Source: Stenotrophomonas sp. SAU14A_NAIMI4_5 (GTDB lineage: Bacteria > Pseudomonadota > Gammaproteobacteria > Xanthomonadales > Xanthomonadaceae). From it: 64,000 nt of DNA. The notes beneath the pieces are model-generated. The model saw nothing but the letters and a program-made list of their open reading frames with translations. It was not told the origin of the DNA and made no database searches. Every line of letters begins with the position of its first letter. Within the stretch, counting starts at the first letter, position 1. Shown piece after piece: positions 9,662 through 40,020 of this stretch. The stretch covers positions 2,592,579-2,656,578 of the forward strand of contig NZ_CP026003.1 in NCBI RefSeq assembly GCF_003086795.1, read 5' to 3'. The position numbers and the translations under genes are program-made.

Positions 9662-9856
9662 TCTGCAGGGCTTGCAGCCCTGCACCTGCAGAAAGCCGAA
9701 GCAAGATCAAAAGCCTGCATCCCGTGGGATGGCGGGGCGATGTGGGTGGTCAGGACACGCCGTAACCCATCCATGGGGGCTCGATGGCGCCATCCATGGC
9801 GCCAACGGTCCTGCCCACCCACACCGCCCCGCCTCTGACAGGTTCACGCGGCTGAT
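9662..9856 (+). repeat. long inverted-repeat module, copy A
   Basis: The module starts with a small palindrome around CTGCAGGGCTTGCAGCCCTGC. It contains the landmark AAAAGCCTGCATCCCGTGGGATGG and then a large imperfect stem. The 5' arm at about 9731-9756 starts GGCGGGGCGATGTGGGTGG and the 3' arm at about 9808-9833 ends CACACCGCCCCGCC. Between the arms are a GGCGCCATCCATGGCGCC palindrome and CCATCCATGG. It is the near-identical reverse complement of copy D at 16714-16911. No gene is present. Confidence 0.75.
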
Positions 9857-9868
9857 GGGAACTGCTGG

Positions 9869-10450
9869 TGGTGGGTGCCGACCATTGGTCGGCACATCTG
9901 TCAGATATCGAATGAATTCATCCACGCACGGCGTGGCTCTACTGCGACTGTGCAGCTGTTGGTGGGTGCCGACCGTTGGTCGGCACATCTGTCAGATGTC
10001 GAATGAATTCATCCACGCATGGCGTAGCTCTACTGCGACTGTGCAGCTGTTGGTGGGTGCCGACCGTTGGTCGGCACATCTGTCAGATGTCGAATGAATT
10101 CATCCACGCATGGCGTGGCTCTACTTCGACTGTGCAGCTGTTGGTGGGTGCCGACCGTTGGTCGGCACATCTGTCAGATGTCGAATGAATTCATCCACGC
10201 ATGGCGTAGCTCTACTGCGACTGGCAGCTGTTGGTGGGTGCCGACCGTTGGTCGGCACATCTGTCAGATGTCGAATGAATTCATCCACGCATGGCGTGGC
10301 TCTACTGCGACAGGCGGCTGTTGGTGGGTGCCGACCGTTGGTCGGCACAATTGTCAGATATCGAATGAATTCATCCACGCATGGCGTGGCTCTACTGCGA
10401 CAGGCGGCTGTTGGTAGGTGTCGACCGTTGGTCGACGCATCTGTCAGACA
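9869..10450. repeat. tandem array, seven units of 90/91 bp
   Basis: Seven successive units begin with GTGGGTGCCGACC (variant GTAGGTGTCGACC in the last) at 9871, 9962, 10053, 10144, 10234, 10324 and 10414, so the period is 91, 91, 91, 90, 90, 90. Each unit holds a hairpin with arms GTGCCGACC / GGTCGGCAC, then TCTGTCAGATGTCGAATGAATTC, then a reversed SMAG element (CCACGCATGGCGTGGCTCTAC). Units differ at only a few positions. The array is open in several frames, but this follows from the repeat and does not indicate a protein gene. Confidence 0.9.
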
Positions 10451-10465
10451 TCGATATCCGACCCC

Positions 10466-10486
10466 GTGCCGACCAACGGTCGGCAC
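10466..10486. repeat. GTGCCGACC hairpin, inverted singleton
   Basis: A 21-bp palindrome with arms GTGCCGACC / GGTCGGCAC around AAC, in opposite orientation to the tandem array and preceded by ATCGATATCCGACCCC. The same composite (ATCGATATCCGACCCC plus the hairpin plus CCACCAACAGC) recurs at 16663-16709. Confidence 0.8.
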
Positions 10487-10507
10487 CCACCAACAGCAGC
10501 GTCATGC

Positions 10508-10795
10508 CGTTCCCACAGATCGCGGAGGTCTGTCGAAGGCGGGGTGGGTCCGGTTGAGGGGGTGTGAGCGGCATGGATGCCGCGACCAAGCCCCCATGGG
10601 TGAGGGCGCTTTGCTTGCGAAGCACTGCTTCGCGAGCGCCCGAACGCACAGCCGCCAGCGGCTGGGCCGGACCCCGGAGGGGGGTTTACGGCGCCCCCCT
10701 CAACCGGACCCACCCCGCCAACCCACGGAAAGCCAGCTCTTGACCTTGACGTTGCTCTGGCTTGAAGCAGGTGCAGCGCTGCAAGCCCTGCAGAA
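10508..10795 (-). repeat. long inverted-repeat module, copy B (reverse orientation)
   Basis: The outer arms are 10538-10562 (GGCGGGGTGGGTCCGG, then TTGAGGG) and 10694-10719, its exact complement. The interior is longer than in the other copies and includes a GCGAAGCACTGCTTCGC palindrome. The arms are followed by AACCCACGGAAAGCC and a GCAGGTGCAGCGCTGCAAGCCCTGCAG tail segment, which are the reverse of the leading parts of copies A, C and E. Copies A and B thus flank the tandem array in opposite orientations. No gene is present. Confidence 0.75.
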
Positions 10796-10801
10796 CAACA
10801 C

Positions 10802-11995
10802 TCACCTCAACCGCACCAGCAGGCTGCTGCCCGCACACACCACTGCCAGCCACGCCACGCCATGCCAACCCCACTGGGCAAGTGCGAGGCTGCCCAGCGC
10901 ACCACCCGCCGCCATGCCGATGAACATGCCGGTGAACAGCAGCGCGTTGAGGCGGCTGCGCGCCGGCGGCACCAGGCCGTAGACCAGCGTCTGGTGCGCC
11001 ACCAGCGCCGACTGGAAACCGAAGTCGAACAGCAGCGCGCTCACCACCAGCAGAGGCAGCAGCGCGGCGGTCGGCAGCCAGCTGTCGGCCAGCAGCAGGC
11101 CGAAGCCCACCAGCGCCACCGCAATCGCCAGCCGTGCCACCGCGTGGCTGCCCAGGCGGTCGGCATAGCGGCCCGCGAACGGCGCCGCCAGCGCGCCGGC
11201 CGCACCGGCAATGCCGAACGCACCTGCGGCGGCACTGCCCAACCCGAGCTTGGCGTGCAGCATCAGTGCCAGGGTCGACCAGAACGCGCTGAAGCCCACC
11301 GCCAGCAGCGACTGGCTGGCGACCGCGCGACGCAGCTGCGGCTGCTCCCGCCACAACTGCAGCAGCGAGGCCAGCAATGCCGGGTAGCGCAAGGTGCTGG
11401 TCGGTGCGAAGCGCGGCAGTGCCTTGGCCATCACCGCGCCCATCGCCGCCACCGACACCGCCGCCAGCACGAACTGCGTACGCCAGCCCCAGGCTTCGGC
11501 GACCACGCCACTGACCACGCGCGAGAGCAGGATGCCCAGCAGCAGACCGGTCATCACCCGGCCAACGATCTGCCCGCGGTGTGCGTCCGGGGCCAGTACC
11601 GCCGCCGCCGGCACGATGTCCTGCGCCAACGTGGCCATCAGGCCTACCAGCAGGCTGGCCATCAGCAGGCCCGGCAGATGGCCGGCCAGCGCCGCCGCCC
11701 CCAGGGCCAGCGACAACAGCACCGACTTCAGCAGGATCAGGTGACGACGGTCGAAGCGGTCACCCAGCGGGGCCAGCAGCAGGATGCCCAGCGCGTAGCC
11801 CAGCTGGGTCAGGGTCGGCACCAGGCCGACGCCGCGCTCGCTGGCGCCGAGGTCCTGCGCGATCAGGCCCAGCATCGGCTGGCTGTAGTACAGCGAGGCC
11901 ACCGAAAAGCCGGCGCCGGCCGCCATCGCCAGGACCAGCGGGGCCGAGGGGGCGGCAGTGGGCGTGGCGGTCACGGAAACAGAGGGGGTGGACAT
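10802..11995 (-). CDS. MFS efflux transporter
   Basis: A 397-residue major facilitator with about 12 hydrophobic segments. The loop 2-3 signature appears as LGDRFDRRHLILLKS near residue 80, and a matching loop AGRYADRLGSHAVAR appears in the second half near residue 265, as in the drug/sugar efflux (YnfM/AraJ-like) group. The start at 11995 has GGAG upstream; the longer frame adds only non-conserved residues. It is divergent from a LysR gene (gap 94 bases), which is the usual arrangement for a regulated efflux pump. The substrate is unknown. Confidence 0.85.
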   Translation of the reverse strand: MSTPSVSVTATPTAAPSAPLVLAMAAGAGFSVASLYYSQPMLGLIAQDLGASERGVGLVPTLTQLGYALGILLLAPLGDRFDRRHLILLKSVLLSLALGAAALAGHLPGLLMASLLVGLMATLAQDIVPAAAVLAPDAHRGQIVGRVMTGLLLGILLSRVVSGVVAEAWGWRTQFVLAAVSVAAMGAVMAKALPRFAPTSTLRYPALLASLLQLWREQPQLRRAVASQSLLAVGFSAFWSTLALMLHAKLGLGSAAAGAFGIAGAAGALAAPFAGRYADRLGSHAVARLAIAVALVGFGLLLADSWLPTAALLPLLVVSALLFDFGFQSALVAHQTLVYGLVPPARSRLNALLFTGMFIGMAAGGALGSLALAQWGWHGVAWLAVVCAGSSLLVRLR

Positions 11996-12089
11996 GGATG
12001 AACTCCGGGGGAGGAATGGTGCATAGCCTGAAGATATTCGCCACACGTCTGTAGTAGGCTCAGCCACATATCATTCATACGCACAGCGC

Positions 12090-13019
12090 ATGACCGACCT
12101 GCCCACTGGCGCCGACCGCCTCGACCTGCTGCGCACCTTCCTGCGCATCGTCGATGCCGGCAGCCTTTCCGCCGCCGCCACCCAGCTCGGCACCACACAG
12201 CCCACGGTCAGCCGGCGGCTGCAGGCGCTGGAGCGACAGCTGGGCCTGCGCCTGCTGCAGCGCTCCACCCACGGCCTGCAGCTGACCGAGGACGGCCAGC
12301 GCTGCCAGCGCCACGCGCAGCGGGTCATCGATGAGTGGGAGTCACTGCAGGCCGAGCTGCATGGCGAGGCGCAGGTGCTGCGCGGGCGTCTGCGGGTGAT
12401 GGTGCCGCACGCGTTCGGCCAGGCGCAGCTGCTGCCGACCATGCTGGATTTCCTGGCACGGCACCCGCAGCTGAGCCTGGAATGGATCCTCGAGGACCAT
12501 CGCCCGGATTTCGTTGCCGAGGGCATCGACTGCGCCGTGCGCGTCGGCCCGGTGGACGAGCCGCGCATGGTCGCCCTGCCGCTGGCCGAGGTGCCGCGCA
12601 TCGTGGTGGCCTCGCCCACCCTGGCCGATCCGGCGCGCGTGCGCACGCCCGAGCAGGCGCAGGCACTGCCCTGGATCGCGCTGGCCACCTATTACCGCGA
12701 GCGCCTGCTGCTGCACGATGCGCAGGGGCGCGCGCACACGCTGTCGATCGCCCCGCGCCTGCTCACCGACAACCTGTTCGTGGTGCAGCGTGCCGCCGTG
12801 GCCGGTCTGGGCGCGGCGATGGTCTCGGCGTGGCTGGTGGCCGACGATCTCGCCGAAGGCCGTCTGGTGCAGCTGCTACCGCAGTGGCAGGCGCCACCGC
12901 TGCCGGTGCACCTGGTGTTCCCCGCCGCGCGCCAGCAGCCGCTGCGGCTGCGCGCGTTCATCGATGCGATGAAGGAAGCACTGCCGCAGCTGCATGGGAT
13001 GCGACCGGCGGTGCGCTGA
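12090..13019 (+). CDS. LysR-family regulator
   Basis: A 309-residue LysR protein. The winged helix-turn-helix is at residues about 10-70 (FLRIVDAGSLSAAATQLGTTQPTVSRRLQALE), followed by a substrate-binding domain of the CrgA/DmlR-like subgroup (about 95-295; ends with LVFPAARQQPLRLRAFID). It is transcribed divergently from the MFS gene and is the obvious candidate for its control. No convincing T-N11-A operator was picked out in the 94-base gap. Confidence 0.88.
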   Translation: MTDLPTGADRLDLLRTFLRIVDAGSLSAAATQLGTTQPTVSRRLQALERQLGLRLLQRSTHGLQLTEDGQRCQRHAQRVIDEWESLQAELHGEAQVLRGRLRVMVPHAFGQAQLLPTMLDFLARHPQLSLEWILEDHRPDFVAEGIDCAVRVGPVDEPRMVALPLAEVPRIVVASPTLADPARVRTPEQAQALPWIALATYYRERLLLHDAQGRAHTLSIAPRLLTDNLFVVQRAAVAGLGAAMVSAWLVADDLAEGRLVQLLPQWQAPPLPVHLVFPAARQQPLRLRAFIDAMKEALPQLHGMRPAVR

Positions 13020-13029
13020 ACCGCTGGAA

Positions 13030-13126
13030 GGGTCAGAGCCCTTTGCGCAGCAAAGGGATCCGACCCTGGGCTGGAGGGTCAGTGTCCGGGGTCGGATCCC
13101 TTTCCACCGGAAAGGGCTCTGACCCC
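13030..13126. repeat. inverted pair of GGGTCGGATCC-type palindromic repeats
   Basis: The first unit, at about 13031-13065, runs GGTCAGAGCCC-TTTGCGCAGCAAA-GGGATCCGACC. The second, at 13088-13126, is its reverse form, GGGGTCGGATCCC-TTTCCACCGGAAA-GGGCTCTGACCCC. Each unit has its own hairpin, and the two together form a larger inverted repeat. They lie between the convergent LysR and amidohydrolase genes, where they could act as a terminator. Confidence 0.85.
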
Positions 13127-13134
13127 ACAGCCGG

Positions 13135-14592
13135 TCACTTCGCCTTGGCCGCCTCGGCATTCCACGCCGCCACCTTGGCCTTGGTGTCGGCCAGCATCTT
13201 GTCCAGCGCCGCACGGTCATACACAGTGCCGCGCAGAATCACGCTGTCGATCTTCTCGGTCGCGGCGATGTCCTGCAGCGGGTTGGCGGTCAGCAGCACC
13301 AGGTCGGCCGCCTTGCCGCTGGCGACGCCACCGTAGCGATCCATCTGGCCGAACCATGCCGGGCCGGAACGCGTGGCCGCCGACAGCGCCTGCGGCGCGC
13401 TCAGGCCTTCCTTCACGAACAGCTGCAGTTCCTGGTGCAAGGCAATGCCCGGGAAGTTGTACGAATTGAGGAAGCCGGCATCGGTGCCGGCGATGATCGT
13501 CACCCCCGCTTCCTGCAGCATCGGCAGCACCGAGGCCACCTGGTGGTACTGCGCATGGCGCGCTTCGATCTGCGCCGGGGTCGCCTTGGCCGCGCGATCC
13601 ACGCGCCACTGGTAGGTCGCACGCAGGCCCGGGCCGATGTAGGCCAGGTACGGATCGTTGGCGTGGTCATCCTGGTCGAGGAAATCGAGGATGCGGCCGC
13701 CATTGAGGGTCGGGGTGACGAACACGCCGCGCCTGGCGAAGTCGCGGTAGGCGTGCATCGCCGTATCGTGGTCGAAGCTGGCATCCAGGCGGCGGTTGGC
13801 CTCGGCGCGGTCGATGCGACCGGCACCGAAATCGGCGGCGATCTGCGCTTCATCCTTGCTGCCGGCCTTGAACGCGTAGTCCAGATGCTCGATCGAGGCG
13901 AGGCCCGCATCGACTGCCTGTTCGACGGTCAGCGCCATCGGGATATGGCCCGAGGCCTTGAAACCGGCCTTGCGCGCGGCGCTGGCCGAATACAGGAACA
14001 GCTCCGGCTTCAGCGTGCTGTCGGTGATCTTCGCGAAATCGACCTTGTCGTGCTGCAGGCGGGTGATCGCCTTGTCGACGTCAGCCTCGCTGCCCACTTC
14101 GATGGTGCCCTTCCAGACCGGCTTGATGCCTTCGATCTTGGCGCCCGAGCTGAGCAGGCGCGGCCCGAACAGCGTGCCGTTGGCGATCTCGCCGCGCCAC
14201 TGCAGCACCTGCTCCGGCAGGTCGCCCGAGCAGTCGCGCACGGTGGTGATGCCATGGGCGATGTACAGCGGCAGCAGCGCCTTGTTCTCTTCGATGAGGG
14301 CCGGGCCGCCGCCGAAGTGCACGTGCATGTCCCACAGGCCCGGGATCAGGTACTTGCCCTTGGCATCGATCTGGCGGCTGGCGCTCCACTGGCTGCGCAG
14401 CTGCGCATCGGGGCCGACGGCGACGATGTCGTCGCCCCGGATCACCACGCTCTGCCCCGGCAGGCTGCGCGCGTGTTCGACATCGACCACGGTGGCGTTG
14501 CGGATCAGCAGGTCGGCGCGCTCGGCAGCGGAGGCCGACAACGGTGCGACGGCAAGGAGGATCGCAAGGGACAACGGACGGGACTGGAACAT
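13135..14592 (-). CDS. exported amidohydrolase (imidazolonepropionase/prolidase-like)
   Basis: A 485-residue amidohydrolase-superfamily enzyme with a Sec signal peptide (cleavage near ASA, residue 21). The metal ligands fit the family: IPGLWDMHVHFGGG (HxH near residue 80), His in SGHIPMAL, EHLD, and Asp in IIAGTDAGF near residue 395. The shape matches the periplasmic imidazolonepropionase-like/Xaa-Pro dipeptidase group. The start at 14592 has AGGA eight bases upstream; 14601 is the alternative. It follows the ankyrin lipoprotein gene after 52 bases, so the two probably form one transcript. Substrate unknown. Confidence 0.83.
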   Translation of the reverse strand: MFQSRPLSLAILLAVAPLSASAAERADLLIRNATVVDVEHARSLPGQSVVIRGDDIVAVGPDAQLRSQWSASRQIDAKGKYLIPGLWDMHVHFGGGPALIEENKALLPLYIAHGITTVRDCSGDLPEQVLQWRGEIANGTLFGPRLLSSGAKIEGIKPVWKGTIEVGSEADVDKAITRLQHDKVDFAKITDSTLKPELFLYSASAARKAGFKASGHIPMALTVEQAVDAGLASIEHLDYAFKAGSKDEAQIAADFGAGRIDRAEANRRLDASFDHDTAMHAYRDFARRGVFVTPTLNGGRILDFLDQDDHANDPYLAYIGPGLRATYQWRVDRAAKATPAQIEARHAQYHQVASVLPMLQEAGVTIIAGTDAGFLNSYNFPGIALHQELQLFVKEGLSAPQALSAATRSGPAWFGQMDRYGGVASGKAADLVLLTANPLQDIAATEKIDSVILRGTVYDRAALDKMLADTKAKVAAWNAEAAKAK

Positions 14593-14644
14593 GGACGGCA
14601 TCCTGGTGGGCGCGCGTAACGCGCAGGGTGGAAGGGGTCGGGGT

Positions 14645-15343
14645 TCAGCGCTGGGCGCCGGCCTGGCGCAGCAGGGTTTCAATGGGGGTGTAGCCACGCT
14701 GGCGTGCGTGCATCAGCGGCGTCACGCCATCGCCATCAGCCAGTTCGGGATTGGCGCCGGCGTCGAGCAGCAGCTGCACGATCTGCACATGGCGCGGGCC
14801 ACCATCGCCGAGCAGGATCGCTTCCAGCAGTGCGGTCCAGTGCAGGCGGTTGACATGGTCCACCGCCACGCCCGCGCGCAGCAGCGTGCGCACGGTGGCC
14901 ACATGGCCGCGTTCGGCGGCGGGAATCAGGGCGATGCCGCCGTAGCGGTTGGTGCTGCGCAGATCGGCACCGTGGGCCAGGGTCAGCGCGAGAATGTCAT
15001 CCAGGCCGCGCGCGCCGGCATACAGGTAAGCGCTGTCCTGCATCGCATCCTTGGCGTTGACGTCGGCACCGGCTTCGATCAGTTCGCGTGCGGCATCGAC
15101 GTGGTTGCCGTGGGTCGCCAGCAGCAGTGCGGTGCGGCCCTCACCATCGCGCGATTCCAGATCGGCATCGTCTTCCAGCGCCGCACGCACGGCGGCGGCA
15201 TCGCCTCGCGCGGCAGCATCGCGCAGGCGCGCATCGGCCGTGCCGGCCGTGGCCGAACAGCCAGGTAGTACCATCGCCAACAGGCACAGCGGCAACAGGC
15301 GACCCAGCGGGCCGGGCAAACGAGGGCGACGAGCGATGCGCAT
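14645..15343 (-). CDS. ankyrin-repeat lipoprotein
   Basis: A 232-residue protein with a lipoprotein signal (LAMVLPGCSA; Cys near residue 29) followed by about five to six ankyrin repeats over residues 35-230 (GRTALLLATHGNHVDAARELIEAGADVNAKD is typical, with DGVTPLMHARQRGYTPIETLLRQAGA as the last). GGAG precedes the ATG. Ankyrin lipoproteins are protein-binding periplasmic factors, often paired with catalases or with toxic effectors. Here the partner in the operon is an exported amidohydrolase. A LysR gene is divergent. Confidence 0.85.
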   Translation of the reverse strand: MRIARRPRLPGPLGRLLPLCLLAMVLPGCSATAGTADARLRDAAARGDAAAVRAALEDDADLESRDGEGRTALLLATHGNHVDAARELIEAGADVNAKDAMQDSAYLYAGARGLDDILALTLAHGADLRSTNRYGGIALIPAAERGHVATVRTLLRAGVAVDHVNRLHWTALLEAILLGDGGPRHVQIVQLLLDAGANPELADGDGVTPLMHARQRGYTPIETLLRQAGAQR

Positions 15344-15436
15344 CTGCAGTTCTCCGGTGCAGCGGGGCGCCGTGCTTGCCGCCCCCTGCCTTGCATGGTA
15401 GAAGTCGCCACGTGCATCCAGAAGTGAAATGTTCAA

Positions 15437-16318
15437 ATGCAAGACAGTGCCAAATCGAATAGAACGCTGTTCGAACTGGACCTGCTGCGTGCGCTGGTGA
15501 TGGTGGCCGACTGCGGCAGTTTCACCACCGCGGCCACCCGCCTGCATTCCACCCAGTCCACGGTCAGCCAGAAGGTGCGGCGGCTGGAGGAGCTGGCCGG
15601 GCACCGCCTGCTCGAACGCGGCCACCGCGACGTGCACCCCACCGATGCCGGGCACACGCTGCTGGGTTACGCCCGGCGCATGCTCGACCTGAACGAGGAA
15701 ATGGCCCAGGCCCTGGCCGGCGCCACGGTGGAGACCGCGGTGCGCATCGGCGTGCCGGAGGACTTCGTCAACGCGCAGACCACGCGGATGCTGGCCGCGT
15801 TCAGCCGCCGCCACCCGCAGGTGAAGCTGGAAATCAGCAGCGGTCTGAGTCGGGACCTGGCCCATGGCTTCGACCATGGCGAACTGGACCTGGTGCTGGT
15901 CAAGCAGCGCCGCAACACGCGCCAGGCGGTGCACTGCCGGCGCGAGCCGATGCACTGGATCGACAGCCAGCGCAGCAGCAGCCTGCAGCTGGATCCGCTG
16001 CCGCTGGTGACGTTCCCGCCGCGCGGCCTGTACCGCGACGAGATGATCCAGGCGGTGGAGGCACTCGGCCTGCGCTGGCGCATCGCGTTCACCAGTTCGT
16101 CGCTGAGCGGCATTCAGGGGGCGGTGGCCGATGGCATCGGCATCAGCCTGCTGCCGCGTCGCGCGGTGAGCCGCGAGCACCGCGTGATCGATGGTGAGCG
16201 TGGCCTGCCGGTGGTGGAGAACTATGAGATCGGGCTGCTGCATCGGCCGGATGCGGATGGTGCGGTGCGCGCGCTCGCCGCCGAGCTCTGGCGGCAGGTC
16301 CAGCGCGAGGCGGAGTAG
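15437..16318 (+). CDS. LysR-family regulator
   Basis: A 293-residue LysR protein with its helix-turn-helix at about residues 14-73 (LRALVMVADCGSFTTAATRLHSTQSTVSQKVRRLEE) and an effector-binding domain at about 98-285. It is divergent from the ankyrin-amidohydrolase pair across a 93-base gap, which suggests it controls that pair. The AT-rich stretch AGTGAAATGTTCAAATGCAAGAC just before the start is the likely promoter/operator zone, though no perfect operator is evident. Confidence 0.87.
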   Translation: MQDSAKSNRTLFELDLLRALVMVADCGSFTTAATRLHSTQSTVSQKVRRLEELAGHRLLERGHRDVHPTDAGHTLLGYARRMLDLNEEMAQALAGATVETAVRIGVPEDFVNAQTTRMLAAFSRRHPQVKLEISSGLSRDLAHGFDHGELDLVLVKQRRNTRQAVHCRREPMHWIDSQRSSSLQLDPLPLVTFPPRGLYRDEMIQAVEALGLRWRIAFTSSSLSGIQGAVADGIGISLLPRRAVSREHRVIDGERGLPVVENYEIGLLHRPDADGAVRALAAELWRQVQREAE

Positions 16319-16321
16319 TGT

Positions 16322-16533
16322 TCGGCAGGGCTGCGCCCTGCACCTGCGGTAGTGCCGGCCGCTGGCCGGCAACTTCAAAAGCAGAAGCCGGCTTTCCGTG
16401 GGTTGGCGGGGTGGGTCCGGTTGAGGGGGGCACTGCAAGTACGTCCATGTAAGCTCGGTCGCCGCATCCATGCGGCTCACGCCCCCTCAACCGGACCCAC
16501 CCCGCCTTCGACAGTTTCCCGCGATCTGTCGGA
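16322..16533 (+). repeat. long inverted-repeat module, copy C, with internal SMAG
   Basis: The module starts with GGCAGGGCTGCGCCCTGC and a GTAG palindrome (16349-16372). It then has AGCCGGCTTTCCGTGGGTTGG and a large stem: arms 16405-16430 (GGCGGGGTGGGTCCGG, then TTGAGGGGG) and 16481-16506 (exact complement). The loop contains GTACGTCCATGTAAGC and GCCGCATCCATGCGGC, identical to the loop of copy E at 39900-40001. It ends CTTCGACAGTTTCCCGCGATCTG. No gene. Confidence 0.78.
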
Positions 16534-16540
16534 ACGGCAC

Positions 16541-16579
16541 GGGGTCGGATCCCATTGCTCCGCAACGGGCTCTGACCCC
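16541..16579. repeat. GGGTCGGATCC-type palindromic repeat
   Basis: A 39-bp unit GGGGTCGGATCCC ... GGGCTCTGACCCC with centre ATTGCTCCGCAAC. It belongs to the same family as the units at 13030-13126, 27156-27217, 27783-27813 and 41837-41873. Confidence 0.85.
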
Positions 16580-16625
16580 AAATGAATTTCGATATCTGAT
16601 GGAAAAATCGTTAGGAATTGGCACA

Positions 16626-16699
16626 GTAGAGCCACGCCATGCGTGGATGAAATCTGTCATATATCGATATCCGACCCCGTGCCGACCAACGGTCGGCAC
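16626..16699. repeat. SMAG element plus GTGCCGACC hairpin
   Basis: GTAGAGCCACGCCATGCGTGG at 16626-16646 is a SMAG unit. It is followed by ATCGATATCCGACCCC and the hairpin with arms GTGCCGACC / GGTCGGCAC (16679-16699). This is a single-unit counterpart of the long tandem array at 9869-10450, likewise set between two inverted modules. Confidence 0.82.
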
Positions 16700-16713
16700 C
16701 CACCAACAGCACA

Positions 16714-16911
16714 CGGAAACTGTCAGAGGCGGGGCGGTGTGGGTGGGCAGGACCGTTGGCGCCATGGATGGCGCCATCGAGACCCCATGGATGGGTTTAC
16801 GGCGTGTCCTGACCACCCACACCGCCCTGCCATCCCACGGAATGCAGGCTTTTGAAGTTAGCTGTTGACGTTGTCTCTGCAGGTGCAGGGCTGCAAGCCC
16901 TGCCGACTACA
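16714..16911 (-). repeat. long inverted-repeat module, copy D (reverse orientation)
   Basis: It runs from ACTGTCAGAGGCGGGGCGG through the GGCGCCATGGATGGCGCC palindrome and GGGTTTACGGCGTGTCCTGACC to CATCCCACGGAATGCAGGC and GGTGCAGGGCTGCAAGCCCTGC. Almost every base matches the reverse complement of copy A. It lies between the LysR gene at 15437-16318 and the deaminase-like gene at 16907-18067, which it just touches. Confidence 0.75.
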
Positions 16912-18067: not shown

Positions 18068-18252
18068 GGGGGAACTCCCGGAAAGCCAGACAAGGCCCCA
18101 TCGTGCGCCCCGCCCGGCCCATCGGCCAACGAAATATCTGCATGCCTCGTATTTGGCAACGCGATGAATGCCCGACGAGTCGCGACGCTTTCGGCACGCC
18201 GGGGACACGCCTGAACGGGTAACATGGGCGCCTGTTTCCGCTGTGATGCCGC

Positions 18253-18894: not shown

Positions 18895-18907
18895 CGGCGA
18901 GCGAGCG

Positions 18908-18932
18908 GTAGTCGAGCAGGCTCGACGCTACT
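18908..18932. repeat. SMAG/REP element
   Basis: GTAGTCGAGC-AG-GCTCGACGCTAC lies between two convergent genes. Single GTAG-headed palindrome. Confidence 0.75.
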
Positions 18933-30934: not shown

Positions 30935-30954
30935 GCTGCGCTCTGGTGGGTTGG

Positions 30955-31232: not shown

Positions 31233-31234
31233 CC

Positions 31235-33145: not shown

Positions 33146-33270
33146 GGAAACCCCTCCCGACAGGAAAGTCCCAAGCCTACTCCTGCCCTGTCCGGTGAAG
33201 TGTGTGCAGGCTTTGCGTTCTGCGCTCTTTGGGGGCAGGACTGATGGCACATGTGCAGTGGCCTCGCAGC

Positions 33271-33358
33271 GTCCGCCGGGCATGGCCCGGCGCTACCGAC
33301 CCGCGGCCCTCGATCCGACCCGCGGCCCCGAGGTAGCGCCGGGCCATGCCCGGCGGAT
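33271..33358. repeat. SMAG/REP inverted pair
   Basis: CGCCGGGCATGGCCCGGCGCTACC at about 33274-33297 and GGTAGCGCCGGGCCATGCCCGGCG at about 33331-33354 are GTAG elements facing each other, between the NTF2-like gene and the ester hydrolase gene. Confidence 0.85.
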
Positions 33359-33361
33359 CCG

Positions 33362-33748
33362 TCAACCCGATTGAACCTCATGCAGCGCCAGCCAGCGCCA
33401 ACGCCCCTGCTCCTGCCGCAGCACCGCCAGCGACTCGCGCCATGCGACCGCCCCATCGCCCACTGCATGCCCCTCGCGATAGCGCAGCACTGCCAGCGGT
33501 GACGGTGCTTCAATCGCCTGCACGGCGTCGATGGCGATGCGCAGGCCAGGGCGCGCACCATGCCCACCCACGAACAAGGCCTGCACCGCCTGCCGATCCA
33601 GCCGCCGCCCGGCGATGCCGACCATGCTGAAGTCCGCGCAGAAATGCGTCATCAGATCGTCGAGTGCTTCGGCGCCGACTTCGGCGCGGAACCAGGCCTG
33701 CAGCTTGTCGTGCAGTTCGTGGATTTCATGTTCGGCAGTGCGGTGCAT
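33362..33748 (-). CDS. NTF2-like/DUF4440 small protein
   Basis: A 128-residue protein with the cone-like NTF2 fold pattern: an N-terminal helix (EIHELHDKLQAWFRAEVG), then DLMTHFCADFSMVGIAGRRLDRQAVQALF, and a C-terminal beta-sheet ending in RWRWLALHEVQ. Such proteins are small enzymes or ligand carriers; nothing here fixes the ligand. Its start overlaps the MFS stop by one base (TGATG), so it is translated with the transporter. Confidence 0.75.
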   Translation of the reverse strand: MHRTAEHEIHELHDKLQAWFRAEVGAEALDDLMTHFCADFSMVGIAGRRLDRQAVQALFVGGHGARPGLRIAIDAVQAIEAPSPLAVLRYREGHAVGDGAVAWRESLAVLRQEQGRWRWLALHEVQSG

Positions 33749-35106
33749 CAGGCATTCTCCGGTTGCGCAAGTGTCAGGGGCTGCGCGCGGCGCAACAGCG
33801 CCATCGGCAGCAGGGTAAGGAAAGCGGCCAGGCCCAGCGCCAGACCGGTGGCCCGCGCCGGCAGCCACTGCATGGCCAGGGCCAGCAGCAGCGCGATGGC
33901 GGCGGTGCCAAGACAGAAGCTGAGCTGGCGGTTGAGATTCCACAGCGCGCTGGCATCACCCAGCGCCTCGGCCTCCACACCGTGGAAGGCCAGCGTCTGC
34001 GCGGTGCTGCTGCACAGGCTGCCGCCCGCCCCCATCAGCGCGAACAGCAGCGCCGCCAGCGCGAACGAAGGCTGCGGCAGCAGGGCCATCAGCAGCAGAC
34101 CCGACGCCTGCAACAACATCCCGCCACGCAGCACCGCGCCCGGCCCGAAACGCGCCAGCAGGCGACGGCTGCCGGTGATGGCCAGCGCCGAGGCCAGCGC
34201 CCACGGCAGCATCAACGCACCGATGCGTGCAGCGCTGAAACCGGCCTGGTGCAGCTGCAACGTGCTCGCCAGCTGGCTTCCGATGAACACGCCCGGCACG
34301 GCCAGATAGACCAGCATCGCCAGCCGCAGCCCGCGATGGGACAGCAGCGACCAGCGCAGCAGCGGCTGTGCCTGCCTGCGCGCGTGGCGCAGGTGGGCGG
34401 TCGCCAGCACCAGCGCCAGCAGCAACAGCACCGCGCCGGCAATCCGGTGGCCGGGTTCACCCAGCCAGGTCAGCGCCAGCAGCAGCACGCCCAGCGCGCT
34501 CATCGCCGTGGCCAGCGCATAGGCCTGCAGGCGGGGCGCGGTGCGTTCACCATCGGCCGGCATCCACGCCAGCACCAGACCCATCGCCGCCAGTGCCAGC
34601 GGCAGGCTGGCCCACAGCACGCCGCGCCAGGACAGCCACTGCACCAGCAGCCCACCCAGCGCCGGTGCCAGCGCCGGTACCAGCAGGGCCACCAGCAGGA
34701 TGCGGCGGGTCAGCGCCCCGCGCTGGTCAGGGCTGCACTGCCGGTAGGCCGCAGCCTGCGCGACCGGGATCAGCAGGCCACCGGCCAGGCCCTGCAGCAG
34801 CCGCCAGCCCAGCAGCCAGCCTATGCCCGGCGCCGCACCGGCCAAGGCCGCCGCCAGCGCGAACAGCAGCAGCGCCACCAGCAGCAGGCGGCGCTCGCCA
34901 CAGCGCGCGGCCAGCCACGGCGCCAGTGGAATCACCATGCTCAGGCCCAGCATGTAGGCCGTGCCGACCCAGGCCAGCACGCCGACATCGGCATGCAGCT
35001 CGGCCGCCAGCGCCGGGTAGGCCACCGTGGCGATGAACATGTTGACCAGGTCCAGGGCGAACACCAGCAGGAATATCGCCTCATGGCGCAGGCGGGGGGA
35101 CGGCAT
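33748..35106 (-). CDS. MFS drug transporter (EmrB/QacA-like, DHA2)
   Basis: A 452-residue transporter with about 14 hydrophobic segments, as in the DHA2 group. Motif-type segments are FIATVAYPALAAELH (DHA2 motif D1 region), RLLQGLAGGLLIPVAQA (motif B with its Arg) and the C motif LVPALAPALGG. It probably exports a toxic compound. It is divergent from a LysR gene across about 105 bases that contain a 19-bp inverted repeat, and is coupled to the NTF2-like gene. Confidence 0.87.
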   Translation of the reverse strand: MPSPRLRHEAIFLLVFALDLVNMFIATVAYPALAAELHADVGVLAWVGTAYMLGLSMVIPLAPWLAARCGERRLLLVALLLFALAAALAGAAPGIGWLLGWRLLQGLAGGLLIPVAQAAAYRQCSPDQRGALTRRILLVALLVPALAPALGGLLVQWLSWRGVLWASLPLALAAMGLVLAWMPADGERTAPRLQAYALATAMSALGVLLLALTWLGEPGHRIAGAVLLLLALVLATAHLRHARRQAQPLLRWSLLSHRGLRLAMLVYLAVPGVFIGSQLASTLQLHQAGFSAARIGALMLPWALASALAITGSRRLLARFGPGAVLRGGMLLQASGLLLMALLPQPSFALAALLFALMGAGGSLCSSTAQTLAFHGVEAEALGDASALWNLNRQLSFCLGTAAIALLLALAMQWLPARATGLALGLAAFLTLLPMALLRRAQPLTLAQPENA

Positions 35107-35182
35107 GGGCGGCGCTCCAGCGGGGAAGCAGGCAGGATGCCCTGCACCGGCTGTTGGAAAAACACGACAGCAGCTGCAACAC

Positions 35183-35201
35183 TGTCAAATCTGTTTTGAC
35201 A
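35183..35201. promoter_or_regulatory. LysR-type inverted-repeat operator
   Basis: TGTCAAATCTGTTTTGACA has perfect 7-bp arms TGTCAAA / TTTGACA around TCTGT. It ends 10 bases before the LysR start and lies in the divergent MFS/LysR promoter region. It is the obvious binding site for the LysR protein. Confidence 0.72.
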
Positions 35202-35211
35202 ATGAATCGCC

Positions 35212-36117
35212 ATGGTCAGCCTGGATCGCTTCGACATCTTCCGCGCCGTGGTCGACGCCGGCAGCCTCACTGCAGCCGCCGACCGCCTTGGCCTGAGCCG
35301 CGCGGTGGTCAGCTTCAACCTGAAGCGGCTGGAGCAGGAACTGGGGGTGACCCTGCTGCTGCGCAGTACCCGCCAGCTGGCCCTGACCGAGGCCGGCGAA
35401 CAGTTCCTGCAGCACTGCGTGCAGGCCCTGGATGCGGCCCAGGCGGCCATCGATGCCGCGCGCCGCGACCAGCACCAGCTGCAGGGCACGCTGCGCCTGA
35501 CCACCACGCCGGAGTACGCGCAGCTGCGGCTGATCCCGGCGCTGGAGGCATTCCGCGCGCGGCATCCGGCGCTGCAGCTGCATCTGTCCACGTCGCCCGC
35601 ACCGGCCGACCTGATTCCCGAGCGTTTCGACGTAGCCATCCGCCTTGGCCGCCTGCCGGATTCAGGCCTGCACGCCAGCGAACTGGAACGGCACCCGCTG
35701 TGCGCGGTGGCCGCACCGTCGCTGCTGGCGCGCCTGCCCTCTGCCGAAGCGGTCGATGACCCGGTGCAGCTGGGCACCCTGCCCCGCCTCGGCTATCCGC
35801 GTCTGGCCGATGTGCCGGTGGTGGCGCCCGACGGCAGCGATGCGTTGTTTGCGACCAATCCGGGCAATGCCGTGGTGCGCGTGGACGGCGCCAGCAGCCT
35901 GCGCGCCTTCGCCCTGGCCGGTGCAGGCGTTACCGTGCTGCCGCGCTGGCTGATCGAGGACGACCTGGCCCACGACCGCCTGCGGCCGGTGCTGCGCCAG
36001 CACCGCTTCCCGCAGCAGAGCGTCTACGCCGTCTACCCGCACAGCACGCAGCCCTCGCCGAAGGTGCGCCACCTGATCGATTTCCTGCGCGGGTGGTTCA
36101 CCGGCACGCCCGGGTGA
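35212..36117 (+). CDS. LysR-family regulator of the adjacent MFS
   Basis: A 301-residue LysR protein. Its helix-turn-helix is at residues 5-65 (FDIFRAVVDAGSLTAAADRLGLSRAVVSFNLKRLEQ), and its effector domain at about 90-295 is of the type ending in YAVYPHSTQPSPKVRHLIDFL. It is divergent from the MFS/NTF2-like pair and next to a perfect inverted repeat. Such pairs usually act as repressor or inducer-dependent activator of the pump. Confidence 0.88.
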   Translation: MVSLDRFDIFRAVVDAGSLTAAADRLGLSRAVVSFNLKRLEQELGVTLLLRSTRQLALTEAGEQFLQHCVQALDAAQAAIDAARRDQHQLQGTLRLTTTPEYAQLRLIPALEAFRARHPALQLHLSTSPAPADLIPERFDVAIRLGRLPDSGLHASELERHPLCAVAAPSLLARLPSAEAVDDPVQLGTLPRLGYPRLADVPVVAPDGSDALFATNPGNAVVRVDGASSLRAFALAGAGVTVLPRWLIEDDLAHDRLRPVLRQHRFPQQSVYAVYPHSTQPSPKVRHLIDFLRGWFTGTPG

Positions 36118-36148
36118 TGACGGCGTCCGCCGGAGATGCCATGACCAG

Positions 36149-36170
36149 GTAGCGCCGGGCCATGCCCGGC
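36149..36170. repeat. SMAG/REP element
   Basis: GTAGCGCCGGGCCATGCCCGGC between the LysR gene and the GH3 terminator. Confidence 0.78.
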
Positions 36171-36190
36171 GAGCGCAGCGGCAATCCACA

Positions 36191-36220
36191 AAAAGAAACG
36201 GCCCCATTCGGGGCCGTTCC
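36191..36220 (-). terminator. intrinsic terminator of the GH3 gene
   Basis: The stem AACGGCCCC / GGGGCCGTT closes ATTC. On the minus strand it is followed by TCTTTTTG, a proper T-run, 26 bases after the GH3 stop codon. It can also slow transcription arriving from the convergent LysR gene. Confidence 0.82.
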
Positions 36221-36244
36221 TTCAAACATCAACAACCCGCTGGA

Positions 36245-39052
36245 TCAGCGCAGCACCTGCTCTACCAGCTGCACGTCCACGCTCTGCAGCGGCTCGGCCG
36301 CGTTGCGCGACAGCTGCACCTGGTAGGTGCCGCCGTCGATCTTCCACTGGCGCGCCTGCGCATCGTAGTGGGCCAGGGTCTTCGGCTCGGCTTCGATGCG
36401 GATGCGGCGCTGTTCGCCCGGCTGCAGCTGCACCTTGTCATAGCCGATCAGGCGGATCGGCGTGGTGCTGCCAGCCGGCAGCTTCAGGTACAGCTGGGCC
36501 ACGTCCGCACCGGCGCGCTTGCCGGTGTTGCGGATGTCCACGCTGGCGACCAGGCGCGAACCCTCTACGCTCACCTTCAGGTTTTCATAGGCGAACGAGG
36601 TGTAGGACAGGCCATGGCCAAACGCGAAGGTCGGGGTCAGACCCTTGGCGGCCATCCACTTGTAGCCGACGTTGGCGCCTTCGATATCGAAATCGAACAC
36701 GTCGCCGAACTCCTTCTTCGGCTTGAAGCCCAGGCCGTCGATGTGCGGGCGCGGCAGCTGCGATTCGTCCACCACCCAGGTCACCGGCAGGCGGCCGGAC
36801 GGGTTGGCCTGGCCGGTCAGCAGCGCGGCGATGCCTTCGCCACCGCGGATGCCCGGGTACCAGGCCTGCAGCATCGCCGGCACCTGCGCCAGCCACGGGG
36901 TACGCACCGGGCCATTGGTTTCCAGCACCAGCACGGTCTTCGGGTTGGCCTTGGCCACCGCCGAGATCAGCGCGTCCTGCTTGTCGGGCAGCTGCATGTC
37001 CGGCAGGTCCACCGATTCGGCCGCCCACTGGGTGGCGAACACGATGGCCACGTCGGCCTGCGCGGCCGCCTTGGCCGCGGCGGCGGCATTGGTGCCGTCC
37101 ACATATTCGATGGTCGCGTCCGGACGCGCTGCACGCAGCGATTCCAGCGGCGAGGACGGGTGGAAGATCACCGGGCCCGGCCAGGTGGTCGGCATCACGC
37201 CCGGCACTGCGTTGGTGCCCTTGGCGGTCACGCCCACCATCGACGAACCACCACCACCGATCACGCCCTTGTCGGCATGGCCACCGATGATGACGATGCG
37301 CTTCACGCTGTCGGCCAGCGGCAGCAGGTTGCCTTCATTGCGCAGCAGCACGCTGCCTTCTTCCACCGTGCGCTGGGCAACGGCGTAGCCGGCTTCGGCA
37401 TCCACCTTCTGGTGCTGCGGCGGGTTGTCGAAGTTGCCATGCAGGAACATCGTGCGCAGGATGCGCGCCACCATGTCGTTCAGGCGCGCCTGCGGCACCA
37501 CGCCACCGTGCACGGCCAGGCGCAGCGGTTCGTCGAAGAACACCGCGGCGTCGAACACTTCACCGGCCGACTGCTGGTCCAGGCCGGCCAGCGCCGCCTT
37601 CGAACCGCTGTGCACGCCGCCCCAGTCGGACATCACGAAACCGGGGAACTTCCATTCCTGCTTCAGCACCTGGTTCATCAGGTAGCCGTTCTCGCAGCCG
37701 TAGGTGCCGTTGATCTTGTTGTACGAGCACATCGCCACGCCCGGGCGACCGGCTTCCAGCGCGATCTCGAAGGCCAGCAGGTCCGATTCGTGCATGGCCT
37801 GTTCGCCGATGCGCACGTCATGGAAGTTGCGGCGGGTCTCCATGTCGTTCAGCGCGAAGTGCTTCATCGAGGAGATCACGTGCTGGCTCTGCACGCCCTG
37901 GATCAGCGCGCCGACCATCGAACCGGCCAGCAGGGGATCTTCGCCGGCGTATTCAAAGTTGCGACCGTTGCGCGGGTCACGCTGCAGGTTGACGCTGCCC
38001 GACAGCAGGATGTTGAAGCGCTGCTGCCATGCTTCGCGGCCCATGGTCGCGCCACCGGCGAAGGCCACTTCGCGGTTCCAGCTGGAGGCGGTGGACGGGC
38101 CGGACGGCATCGCGGTGGCGAAGTCGCCCGGACGGATGCCGCCCGGATTGGTCACGCCCACGCCGGCATCGGCCGACTGCTGCGCCGGAATGCCCAGGCG
38201 CGGCACCGCCGGCACGAAACCGGCCGAACCCACGGCGCCTTCCGGCAGCGGGCCACCGTCCTTGCCCAGCCCGAAGTAGCTGTGCAGCATCTGGAACTTC
38301 TCGTCCTCGGTCATCGCCTTCAGCAGCAGCGCAGCGCGCGCATCGGCGTTGAGGGTGGCGTCCATCCACGGCTGCTCGCCGCCCTTGTCGGCCACGTAGG
38401 CCAGGGTCAGCAGGGTCGCGCGCAGGGCGCTGCCATCGATCTTGAACGGCGCGCTGCTGGCAGCCTGGAAGCCATCGCTGAAGTAGCTGGCATCGGCTTC
38501 CAGGGCCACGCGGGCCGGATCGAAACCGGCAGCCTTGGCCGATTCACCGGCCACCGCACCCAGCAGCACGGCCGGTGCGCCCAGGCGCGAACGGGTGACC
38601 AGGGCCGGCAGGCGCGCGGCGCCCGCACCGGCATCGGTGTACAGGGCCACGGTGTGGCGGCCATCGTCCAGGCGCAGGTAGTTCAGGCCCGGCTGGTCGG
38701 GGCCGGATTCGGCGGCGATCGGCAGGCGGGTCAGCACGGCCTGGCCCTGCTGGGTCTGGCCATCATCCTTGCCGGCGGCGATGAAGCGGTATTCGTAGCC
38801 CAGGCCATCGGCCAGCAGCTGCAGCGGATCGACCTGGCCGATGCCGCGCTGCACCTGGCGCACGCTGACGGCGTCCACCTGCAGGGATTTCAGCTGGGCA
38901 GCCAGGGCGGGAATGGCATCGGCGCTCGGCGCCTGGTCCAGGGTCAGCACGGTGAAGGCGGCCGTGTCGGCCCAGGCCGGGGCGGCCAGCGCGGCAGACA
39001 GCGCAAGGGACAGGGCAAGGGACAGGGCAAGCGGCTTTGTAAACGTTTTCAT
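36245..39052 (-). CDS. GH3 family beta-glucosidase with degenerate EEP-like N-terminal domain
   Basis: A 935-residue exported protein. The signal peptide (residues 1-28) contains a tandem LALS repeat encoded by 12-bp repeats. Residues about 32-220 resemble an endonuclease/exonuclease/phosphatase fold (TVLTLD, then DAVSVRQV, then QAVLTRLPI, then VALYTD, then AVLLGAVAGE), but the expected catalytic Glu, His, Asp and Asn are replaced (Gln66, Asp140, Ala166, Ala168). The GH3 part starts about residue 230; RNGRNFEYAGEDPLLAG and MKHFALND are substrate-binding segments, and the nucleophile is Asp476 in FVMSDWGG. A C-terminal fibronectin-type domain follows. It likely hydrolyses beta-glucosides in the periplasm. 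It lies alone with its own terminator. Confidence 0.87.
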   Translation of the reverse strand: MKTFTKPLALSLALSLALSAALAAPAWADTAAFTVLTLDQAPSADAIPALAAQLKSLQVDAVSVRQVQRGIGQVDPLQLLADGLGYEYRFIAAGKDDGQTQQGQAVLTRLPIAAESGPDQPGLNYLRLDDGRHTVALYTDAGAGAARLPALVTRSRLGAPAVLLGAVAGESAKAAGFDPARVALEADASYFSDGFQAASSAPFKIDGSALRATLLTLAYVADKGGEQPWMDATLNADARAALLLKAMTEDEKFQMLHSYFGLGKDGGPLPEGAVGSAGFVPAVPRLGIPAQQSADAGVGVTNPGGIRPGDFATAMPSGPSTASSWNREVAFAGGATMGREAWQQRFNILLSGSVNLQRDPRNGRNFEYAGEDPLLAGSMVGALIQGVQSQHVISSMKHFALNDMETRRNFHDVRIGEQAMHESDLLAFEIALEAGRPGVAMCSYNKINGTYGCENGYLMNQVLKQEWKFPGFVMSDWGGVHSGSKAALAGLDQQSAGEVFDAAVFFDEPLRLAVHGGVVPQARLNDMVARILRTMFLHGNFDNPPQHQKVDAEAGYAVAQRTVEEGSVLLRNEGNLLPLADSVKRIVIIGGHADKGVIGGGGSSMVGVTAKGTNAVPGVMPTTWPGPVIFHPSSPLESLRAARPDATIEYVDGTNAAAAAKAAAQADVAIVFATQWAAESVDLPDMQLPDKQDALISAVAKANPKTVLVLETNGPVRTPWLAQVPAMLQAWYPGIRGGEGIAALLTGQANPSGRLPVTWVVDESQLPRPHIDGLGFKPKKEFGDVFDFDIEGANVGYKWMAAKGLTPTFAFGHGLSYTSFAYENLKVSVEGSRLVASVDIRNTGKRAGADVAQLYLKLPAGSTTPIRLIGYDKVQLQPGEQRRIRIEAEPKTLAHYDAQARQWKIDGGTYQVQLSRNAAEPLQSVDVQLVEQVLR

Positions 39053-39232
39053 CGGCGGGCGTAATTCCGTTGCCAAGGCAATCGGTCCAGGGAAAGTGCC
39101 GCCGAAGGGTGCAGCGTTCATGCCGCGCGGGCGTTGCCAGGCAACACACCGCGGGCCAGGGGACGGACCGGTCTGCGCGCGGGACCCTCCTCCCGGCGTG
39201 ACAACCTGCCTGCCCGGGCCGCAAAGCGACCC

Positions 39233-39245
39233 ATCTTGTTAAGAT
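39233..39245. promoter_or_regulatory. possible operator palindrome upstream of GH3 and VOC genes
   Basis: ATCTT-GTT-AAGAT is a 13-bp palindrome in the only AT-rich patch of the 334-base gap between the divergent GH3 and VOC genes. The rest of the gap shows no gene or other repeat. It is only a candidate. Confidence 0.35.
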
Positions 39246-39386
39246 TGTGCGAGGGCATCGATGGCTGTCAACAGGACCTAAGTCACAGGCCTTCCTATGG
39301 CCTTGGTTATCAGGCCATCACCGGCGGTCATCAGCGGGCCGCAGGGCCGTGCCGATAATGGGAGTCCCCGGCGATGGACCGAGCCC

Positions 39387-39821
39387 ATGAACGTACACCG
39401 CACTTTCGACCACCTCTGGCGCGACCGCTGTGATACTTCCAGCCAGCGCAGCCCGCGCGTGCTGATCCGCGTGTTCGTCACTCCCGGCGAGCTGGAGCGC
39501 AGCGTGGCGTTCTACGAGCAGCTGCAGGGCGTGGTGGCCGATGCGGGCTTTCCGTTCCCCGATGCCGGCCTGCGCCTGGCCATGGTCGGTGCGTTCCTGC
39601 TGATCGAAGGCAGCGATGACGCGCTGGCGCCGTTCACCTCCACCACCGGCACGTTGCTGGTCGATGATGTGCGGCCCTATCACGACAGGCTGGTGGCGGC
39701 CGGCGCCGAGATCATCTTCCCGCTGCAGGTGGTGCCCACTGGCGCGGCGTTCAATGCGGTGCATCCCGATGGCACCGTGGTCGAGTACGTGCACCATCGC
39801 CCGGATCCGCACGGGCGGTGA
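39387..39821 (+). CDS. VOC (glyoxalase/bleomycin-resistance fold) protein
   Basis: A 144-residue protein. The VOC pattern begins about residue 25 (VLIRVFVTPGELERSVAFYEQLQG) and ends with HPDGTVVEYVHH, giving the two beta-alpha-beta-beta-beta halves. Some metal-ligand positions are kept (the final Glu and His), but the first His is replaced, so catalysis is not certain. The start is uncertain, and no clear ribosome site is seen. It is divergent from the GH3 gene. Confidence 0.72.
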   Translation: MNVHRTFDHLWRDRCDTSSQRSPRVLIRVFVTPGELERSVAFYEQLQGVVADAGFPFPDAGLRLAMVGAFLLIEGSDDALAPFTSTTGTLLVDDVRPYHDRLVAAGAEIIFPLQVVPTGAAFNAVHPDGTVVEYVHHRPDPHGR

Positions 39822-39854
39822 TGGTGCGGCCGGGCTGCCGCCCGGCACCCGCTG

Positions 39855-39878
39855 ACGTCAACGTCAACGTCAACGTCA
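39855..39878. repeat. hexanucleotide tandem repeat (ACGTCA)4
   Basis: Four perfect ACGTCA units lie immediately upstream of module E. The equivalent place in modules B and D has single TTGACGTT-type remnants, so copy number may vary between loci. Confidence 0.85.
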
Positions 39879-39882
39879 AGAG

Positions 39883-40020
39883 CCTGCATTCCGTGGGATG
39901 GCGGGGTGGGTCCGGTGGCATGGGACGCTGCAAGTACGTCCATGTAAGCTCGGTCGCCGCATCCATGCGGCTCACGCCCCTGCCACCGGACCCACCCCGC
40001 CTTCGACAGTTTCCTGCTAG
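39883..40020 (+). repeat. long inverted-repeat module, copy E
   Basis: The module starts CCTGCATTCCGTGGGATGG. Its stem has arms GGCGGGGTGGGTCCGG, then TGGCA (from 39900), and TGCCA, then CCGGACCCACCCCGCC (to 40001). The loop is identical to that of copy C (GTACGTCCATGTAAGC, then GCCGCATCCATGCGGC). It ends CTTCGACAGTTTCC. Where copy C has TTGAGGGGG/CCCCCTCAA in the arms, this copy has GGCATGGG/CCCTGCC, so pairing is kept by changes on both sides. No gene in the gap 39822-40173. Confidence 0.78.

Follow-up and report, generated by a model that had tools for sequence, protein, structure and literature searches.

A dispersed, REP-like repeat of gammaproteobacteria with a covarying three-way junction and two candidate CsrA/RsmA-binding loops

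Five copies of an interspersed repeat, modules A to E, are present in a stretch of 64,000 nucleotides (nt) of Stenotrophomonas sp. SAU14A_NAIMI4_5 (contig NZ_CP026003.1, positions 2,592,579 to 2,656,578; hereafter, the window). On the strand opposite to that on which these modules were originally read, the family folds into a three-way junction carrying two hairpins whose loops match the known recognition site of CsrA/RsmA, which regulates metabolism and lifestyle globally at the post-transcriptional level. On balance, and with modest confidence, we read it from its sequence as a dispersed repeat, similar to repetitive extragenic palindromic (REP) elements, that would encode an RNA with two CsrA/RsmA-binding sites. 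The repeat, its covarying fold, the loop motif and its fixed spacing, the strand bias of the wobble pairs, the geometry of adjacent copies and the distribution were computed directly. A previous inspection of the window (the sequence-only reading) had described the modules as a mobile or structured element that could not be assigned to a described family; its structured nature and its position outside the families that can be checked are supported by our data, while mobility is plausible only, from the copy number and from the presence or absence of a module at one site.

Results

Fold and covariation of the repeat

In the core of the element, two hairpins (P2 and P3; P2' and P3' on the reverse strand) and a long stem of variable sequence (P1) meet in a three-way junction. 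Among 29 diverse cores of equal length, the junction was constant while the stems were hypervariable yet paired; 19 of 25 pairs had changed on both sides, with a covariation of 0.617 compared with 0.190 after shuffling (three of 32 cores, one with mismatched arm classes and two irregular, were excluded, which slightly flatters the pair percentages). Two-sided changes were found in all four helices of 62 model-aligned copies from other genomes (the same genus is represented among these). When 38 diverse copies were aligned (three of 41 were excluded as irregular or shifted in register, with the same slight flattering), 24 of 28 pairs had changed on both sides, and the covariation was 0.762, against 0.183 for shuffled and at most 0.162 for slid alignments; hence, all four modelled helices covary. 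By a weaker measure, the 24 two-sided pairs in this set compare with 20.5 after shuffling, a value equalled by 5 of 500 shuffles. Six sequences of 119-121 nt (the reverse strands of modules E, A and D and three typed family sequences) folded better than dinucleotide shuffles (z -7.3 to -10.1; 0 of 200 shuffles as good). A 76-nt gammaproteobacterial core reached z -5.7, and the 58-nt inner part alone z -0.2, with 78 of 200 shuffles folding as well; the fold-stability signal is thus carried by the long stem P1.

The joint change of both arms had been taken as the mark of selection for base pairing. It extends well beyond the five copies of the window, but covariation alone does not prove such selection, and the proof is weakened by the scarcity of G.U intermediates in P1 (on the originally read strand, 5 of 924 pairs in this genus were G.U and 15 of 924 were A.C) and by a copy whose arms stem from two different classes. 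This chimeric copy (L056, 1769-1887) combines a class I 5' arm with a class II 3' arm, leaves P1 largely unpaired, and is evidence of recombination between copies.

Stronger evidence than the covariation of the arms comes from the wobble pairs on the opposite strand and from loops that make sense there as CsrA/RsmA sites. Transitions in long stems leave either a G.U or an A.C pair. In 203 unique arm pairs (copies of 75-77 nt), 272 A.C cells but 77 G.U cells were counted on the originally read strand. Distinct contexts, which are not fully independent lineages, favored the reverse strand by 134 to 57 (p=2.5e-8) and, in gammaproteobacterial copies of 74-78 nt outside the Xanthomonadales, by 46 to 22 (p=0.005). 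Since an excess of A.C on one strand amounts to G.U on the other, either the reverse strand folds in single-stranded form or it has a distinct mutation pattern.

Two unlike hairpins with the same loop

On the originally read strand the loops mostly read R-UCC-N-U; on the reverse strand, both hairpins present C-[A-N-G-G-A-X]-G, and they share this loop though they are unlike in stem, bulge, and position. In the 62 copies from other fetched genomes, the P2' loop was composed of C61, A61, N (T34, G17, A6, C5), G62, G60, A62, C39/T21, and G62, and the P3' loop of C62, A61, N, G61, G62, A62, T56, and G62; 224 aligned copies of exactly 76 nt, a few of them fetched twice, were much alike in composition. 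Among 302 unique copies of 74-78 nt, 269 carried both CANGGANG motifs, with the GGA of each in an ANGGAX loop directly on its stem. The two GGA triplets were spaced by exactly 23 nt in 259 of these 269 copies, and among 11,350 shuffles of the same composition, five contained a pair of such motifs. The N was the least conserved loop column (0.48 and 1.04 bits), while the preceding A and the A of GGA were almost fixed; the pattern used for this count, which kept 279 of the 302 copies, fixed C, GG, and G, so that information comes only from the columns of the A, the N, the final A, and the X. No covariation was seen at N and X (p=0.31 and 0.16), as is expected of unpaired bases.

These features match what has been reported for the protein. 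The high-affinity CsrA/RsmE hexaloop ANGGAX sits directly on its stem (PMC4005645). Systematic evolution of ligands by exponential enrichment (SELEX) yielded the CsrA consensus RUACARGGAUGU, and CsrA bridges sites that are 10-63 nt apart, best at more than 18 nt (PMC7652899). UACARGGAUGU was present in 11 of 48 unique copies outside the Xanthomonadales, most of which came from a scan that itself fixed part of the loop. To judge from the sequence, the two candidate sites of the repeat lie at a bridging distance, as they do in RNAs of the CsrB/RsmZ type. In the CsrA reading frame of this genome, numbered from the MLILTRR start, L4 and R44 are present.

Distribution

The core is not confined to the genus; a search of the order recovered it in at least 74 of 299 genomes and at least 23 of 85 genera; copies per genome ranged from 3 to 123 among the matches listed for 15 genomes. 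With a reverse-strand model built from the 38 diverse copies and under strict filters, at least 76 of 370 genomes sampled from the class (each 90% complete or more) gave a match, representing at least 64 of 272 genera. In a sample of the phylum, at least 24 of 299 genomes matched, and all 24 listed belong to the same class. A pattern scan that fixed part of the P2 loop, by which P2, but not P3, is ascertained in its direct matches, gave Xanthomonas, Stenotrophomonas, Luteimonas, Arenimonas, Lysobacter, Thermomonas, and Pseudoxanthomonas among the matches listed, and also Pseudomonas, Halopseudomonas, Marinobacter, Alcanivorax, Rheinheimera, Cellvibrio, Microbulbifer, Methylotetracoccus, and others; it is from these genera that we call the class Gammaproteobacteria. 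Two copies (L293 and L295) lie on contigs of metagenome-assembled genomes (MAGs) labelled Klebsiella pneumoniae and Rhodobacteraceae, contigs that are possibly misbinned. Of 27 genomes in a first set, which mixed element-bearing and element-free ones, 26 gave a csrA match; in a second set, limited to element-bearing genomes, the gene was found in 73 of 74.

Points that weigh against CsrA/RsmA binding

Several observations speak against the CsrA/RsmA reading or limit it. The csrA gene is nearly universal (5 of 6 element-negative genomes also have it) and gave no match in two element-bearing genomes, the 98% complete draft G518 and the 65% complete G248; it is too widespread for its co-occurrence to be evidence of anything but ligand availability. 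One or both motifs are missing in 33 of the 302 unique copies, most often outside the Xanthomonadales (13 of 48), and a four-unit array (L254) has AAGGGATT instead of CANGGANG in its P3' loop. Module B has no ANGGAX loop at the P2 position, and 21 of 114 model matches in this genome score below 45 bits and represent extended or partial variants. P2' is short and at times absent from the predicted minimum-energy fold. SELEX ligands mostly have four or fewer contiguous pairs (PMC7652899), whereas P3' and P1 of the repeat are long. The wobble bias, besides the incomplete independence of the contexts counted, possibly reflects mutation instead of selection, with transcription-coupled mutation as one potential contributor. 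Finally, codirectional gene contexts in this genome, by a crude coding score, comprise 22 sense and 28 antisense copies and give no clear orientation; this mixture does not imply a simple transcript.

Modules of the window

All five modules are present where the sequence-only reading had placed them and belong to one repeat family; the exact modules are narrower than proposed, the wider spans having included an upstream hairpin, H0. They do share the GGCGGGG...CCCCGCC arms, a lead of CCGTGGGATGG type, and a tail of GACAGTTTCC type, with B and D read on the minus strand, and the flanks vary (GACAGGTTCA in module A, GACAGACCTC in module B). Module A (9722-9841, plus strand) has class III P1 arms and a model core at 9745-9819; its H0 hairpin (GCAGGGCTTGCAGCCCTGCACC) lies upstream at 9665-9686 (plus), and its NGGAN loops are found on the minus strand at 9769-9773 (P2', CCATGGATGGG) and 9792-9796 (P3', CCATGGATGGC). 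Its inverted partner, module B (10530-10728, minus strand, class I arms), is an extended variant that is matched in part by the covariance model (10563-10608); a longer hairpin substitutes for P2, the P3' loop (GCATGGATGCC) lies at 10574-10578 (plus), and an H0-like hairpin, a fuzzy match, at 10770-10792 (minus). Module C (16396-16514, plus strand, class I arms, core 16418-16493) follows an H0 at 16325-16344 (plus) and has its P2' loop (ACATGGACGTA) at 16443-16447 and its P3' loop (GCATGGATGCG) at 16466-16470, both on the minus strand. Module D, the inverted partner of C (16720-16840, minus strand, class III arms, core 16742-16817), has its P3' and P2' NGGAN loops on the plus strand at 16765-16769 and 16788-16792, and its H0 at 16882-16903 (minus).

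Module E (39891-40009, plus strand, core 39913-39988) has P1 arms of class I type with a different inner part, and its H0 (GCCGGGCTGCCGCCCGGCACC, 39829-39849, plus) is a paired variant of the others. The P2' loop (ACATGGACGTA, 39938-39942, minus) is unpaired in the predicted RNA fold, as is the GGA of the P3' loop (GCATGGATGCG, 39961-39965, minus). The loops of C and E had been called identical; their interiors are near-identical, starting with GCACTGC in C and ACGCTGC in E. The inner arm of E contains one T x C mismatch (GGTGGCATGGG versus CCCCTGCCACC).

The members of each pair, A/B and C/D, are separated by arrays of SMAG/REP-like palindromes (9872-10480 and 16580-16710), in which GGTGGGTGCCGACC.TTGGTCGGCAC alternates with ATCCACGC.TGGCGTGG.

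Copies in the genome

Within the window and the stretches fetched from this genome, the covariance model matched 114 times; modules A, C, D, and E were recovered completely, and B was recovered as an extended variant. This is a lower bound, as some doubly extended copies were missed and four further matches lie outside the fetched stretches. BLAST searches with three modules, with about 40 sites scored per query, found at least 113 intervals that merge into at least 80 clusters. We parsed 101 candidates, dropped nine that lacked the core, and restored C, to obtain 93 modules. Without large insertions, modules are mostly 118-122 nt long; 85 of the 93 are preceded, at no more than 140 nt, by a short, GC-rich, H0-like hairpin, after which a spacer with AACGTC-like hexamers usually comes.

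Aberrant copies were also seen. Two (L057, 2173-2548; L077, 919-1294) share an insertion of about 257 nt in the P2 loop that is bounded by TGAAGTGACCCCC and GGGGTCACTTCA and looks like a deleted insertion sequence or miniature inverted-repeat transposable element. In five others (L011, L033, L042, L069, L072) and in module B, P2, P3, or both are exchanged for bigger nested hairpins whose loops are of the GCGTCCTGC type (CCCCGGAGGGG on the reverse strand); this is modular hairpin swapping. A further subset (L047, L049, L067, L073, L075) has other surroundings and other P1 arms, some with a GGCGGAGCCCCTCGTGGC-type sequence on one side and a GCCACGGAA...AAAAGC-type sequence on the other, which suggests that the core is present in more than one repeat context.

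Pairs, arrays, and occupied sites

Where adjacent matches in this genome are less than 450 nt apart (each pair counted once), their reverse strands point outward in all 34 of 34 pairs; the same holds for 56 of 73 such pairs from the rest of the order and for 11 of 15 from beyond it. Some extended copies in the second part of this analysis are out of register. Partners rarely have similar P1 arms: 0 of 34 pairs in this genome and 1 of 66 in others, against 3.6 and 6.4 expected from shuffling, with 35 and 8 of 2,000 shuffles, respectively, as low. In the parsed set, all 27 adjacent pairs are head-to-head. Of these, 25 combine a class I module with one of class II or III, and no pair consists of two class I modules, though this class makes up 51 of the 93. 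Arrays in the same orientation were found in a Saccharophagus MAG (four units) and on contig 1 of genome G861 (L383; six units of about 227 nt with twelve CANGGANG motifs). The spacers of the six-unit array carry GCGGCTGAAGCCGCTCCTACAAAA; this we take to resemble a Pseudomonas REP.

Anchoring on the gene upstream of module E gave 27 loci, of which 17 (that of this genome included) are intact, three partial, and seven without the module, as counted by inspection; in some of the latter seven, the downstream gene differs too. The P1 class and the P2 type vary between species at this site, and the flanks of the module-free sites have diverged too far to fix exact ends. In genome G302, about ten contigs terminate directly in a module, which suggests that the repeat interrupts assembly.

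Such behavior would also be that of a non-autonomous mobile element whose reverse strand forms a single-stranded DNA hairpin, recognized through its junction and loops by a transposase or recombinase, as with REP/REPIN and IS200-like elements, and we regard this as the best of the alternatives, if an unlikely one. The high copy number (114 matches here, at least 123 in another genome), the presence or absence of a module and the changes of arm class at the site of module E, the head-to-head pairs, and the mosaic context with SMAG REPs all fit it, and G.T wobble on one strand would also suit single-stranded DNA. An autonomous copy or a target duplication was not seen, no search aimed at transposases having been made, and the mobile element does not account for one and the same CANGGANG loop, its N free, on two different hairpins at fixed spacing. 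CsrA-type binding and a hairpin-DNA mobile element can, at any rate, hold together.

Relation to neighboring genes

Where the upstream gene was called on the same strand, 36 of 50 modules begin 60-93 nt past its stop codon, and a crude call, given little weight because frames left open at the ends of stretches yield false antisense calls, placed 28 copies in convergent and 11 in divergent contexts. These positions, together with the very stable folds, would be consistent with a generic structure of gene ends, comparable to REP/BIME elements, that acts in termination, stabilization of the mRNA 3' end, or insulation without CsrA. We hold this to be improbable: wobble bias and loop identity indicate the strand opposite to the adjacent gene, a stabilizing stem needs no conserved loop, and no regular U-tract followed H0 in the inspected flanks. 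A function in the 3' untranslated region (UTR) of the sense strand, suggested by the window copies that follow stop codons, was dropped in view of the mixed orientation genome-wide. Neutral palindromes, whose arms would covary without function through template switching or gene conversion, find some support in the few G.U intermediates on the originally read strand and in the chimeric arms of L056, but they predict neither strand-biased wobble, nor a fixed 23-nt spacing, nor class-wide conservation of loop and bulge, and are very improbable.

Discussion

Binding by CsrA/RsmA is the simplest account of the loop identity, the free N, the fixed spacing, the strand bias, and the conservation across the class. 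The module would be an RNA domain carried by a repeat and functional on the strand opposite to that originally read. Its transcript is predicted to fold into a compact three-way junction around P1, which is long and may be of any sequence; P3', of about 10 bp and often with one internal mismatch, would present the first ANGGAX hexaloop and be followed by a single A, and P2', built of 3 bp, a one-sided UUCAC-type bulge, and 3 bp, would present the second before GU leads back to P1. The 23-nt distance between the GGA triplets would fit a single CsrA/RsmA dimer bridging both sites. Copies appear to have spread in intergenic DNA like REP/BIME elements, often head-to-head with outward reverse strands and unlike P1 arms; transcription from either side of such a pair would therefore meet one copy in the CsrA-binding orientation.

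We infer transcription of the modules, CsrA binding, and a decoy effect, the latter by analogy with CsrB/RsmZ and with RsmU, which derives from a 3' UTR (PMC7694677). The modules may act as scattered sponges that hold CsrA/RsmA, whether dispersed as decoys or attached as tails to long 3' UTRs. More tentative is the wider picture: a gammaproteobacteria-wide interspersed family with a two-site CsrA/RsmA-binding RNA as its cargo, in which REP-like repeats, mostly head-to-head with unlike stems, would scatter decoys whose pervasive or read-through transcription tunes CsrA; we consider this possible, though somewhat short of probable. If true, a dispersed repeat with many candidate sites would alter the accounting of CsrA titration, for which the known antagonists are a handful of small RNAs, and REP-like repeats would gain a concrete molecular partner. 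Whatever its ligand, a structure without a gathering-score match to Rfam 15 in the searched sequence merits an entry of its own.

A match to an already named repeat family was sought. Rfam gave no gathering-threshold match in the window and no family of this kind in 12 other gammaproteobacterial loci, where the sole match, Alpha_RBS, is unrelated; matches to modules C and D at E values up to 5 (mainly microRNA-type hairpins and Ysr224) stayed below the gathering score and are taken as chance. We found no recognized description of such a repeat in the literature, a search that proves no absence, as most subscription papers and the 2010 SMAG paper lay outside its coverage. SMAG elements, like the modules, are intergenic, palindromic, and high in copy number, and occur in the same intergenic mosaics; they are short units that start with GTAG (GTAGTGCCGGCCGCTGGCCGGCA; PMC2613905), whereas the modules are about 120 nt long, start with a CCGTGGGAT-type sequence without a GTAG head, and fold differently, into a three-way junction, so that identity with SMAG/REP is ruled out.

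REPIN/BIME elements are inverted pairs of palindromic units with a mosaic structure. The modules share both features, but they are much longer, contain two sub-hairpins each, and pair with partners of unlike stems. RsmU, as a member of the family, was rejected, since none of the 80 clusters listed lies near the comEA-like match at 1203211. According to the RsmU report (PMC7694677), this RNA is limited to Xanthomonas, where it is more than 90% conserved, and still bound RsmA after all four predicted GGA motifs had been changed; motif counts alone are thus no proof of a binding mode. Another report (PMC3937308) describes xanthomonads as being without the rsmB type.

The modules resemble CsrB/C, RsmX/Y/Z, and RsmU in presenting GGA in the loops of hairpins, more than one per RNA. 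Each of the small RNAs that sequester CsrA/RsmA is known from a single locus or a few loci, whereas the modules form a dispersed repeat of up to more than 100 copies, built around a three-way junction.

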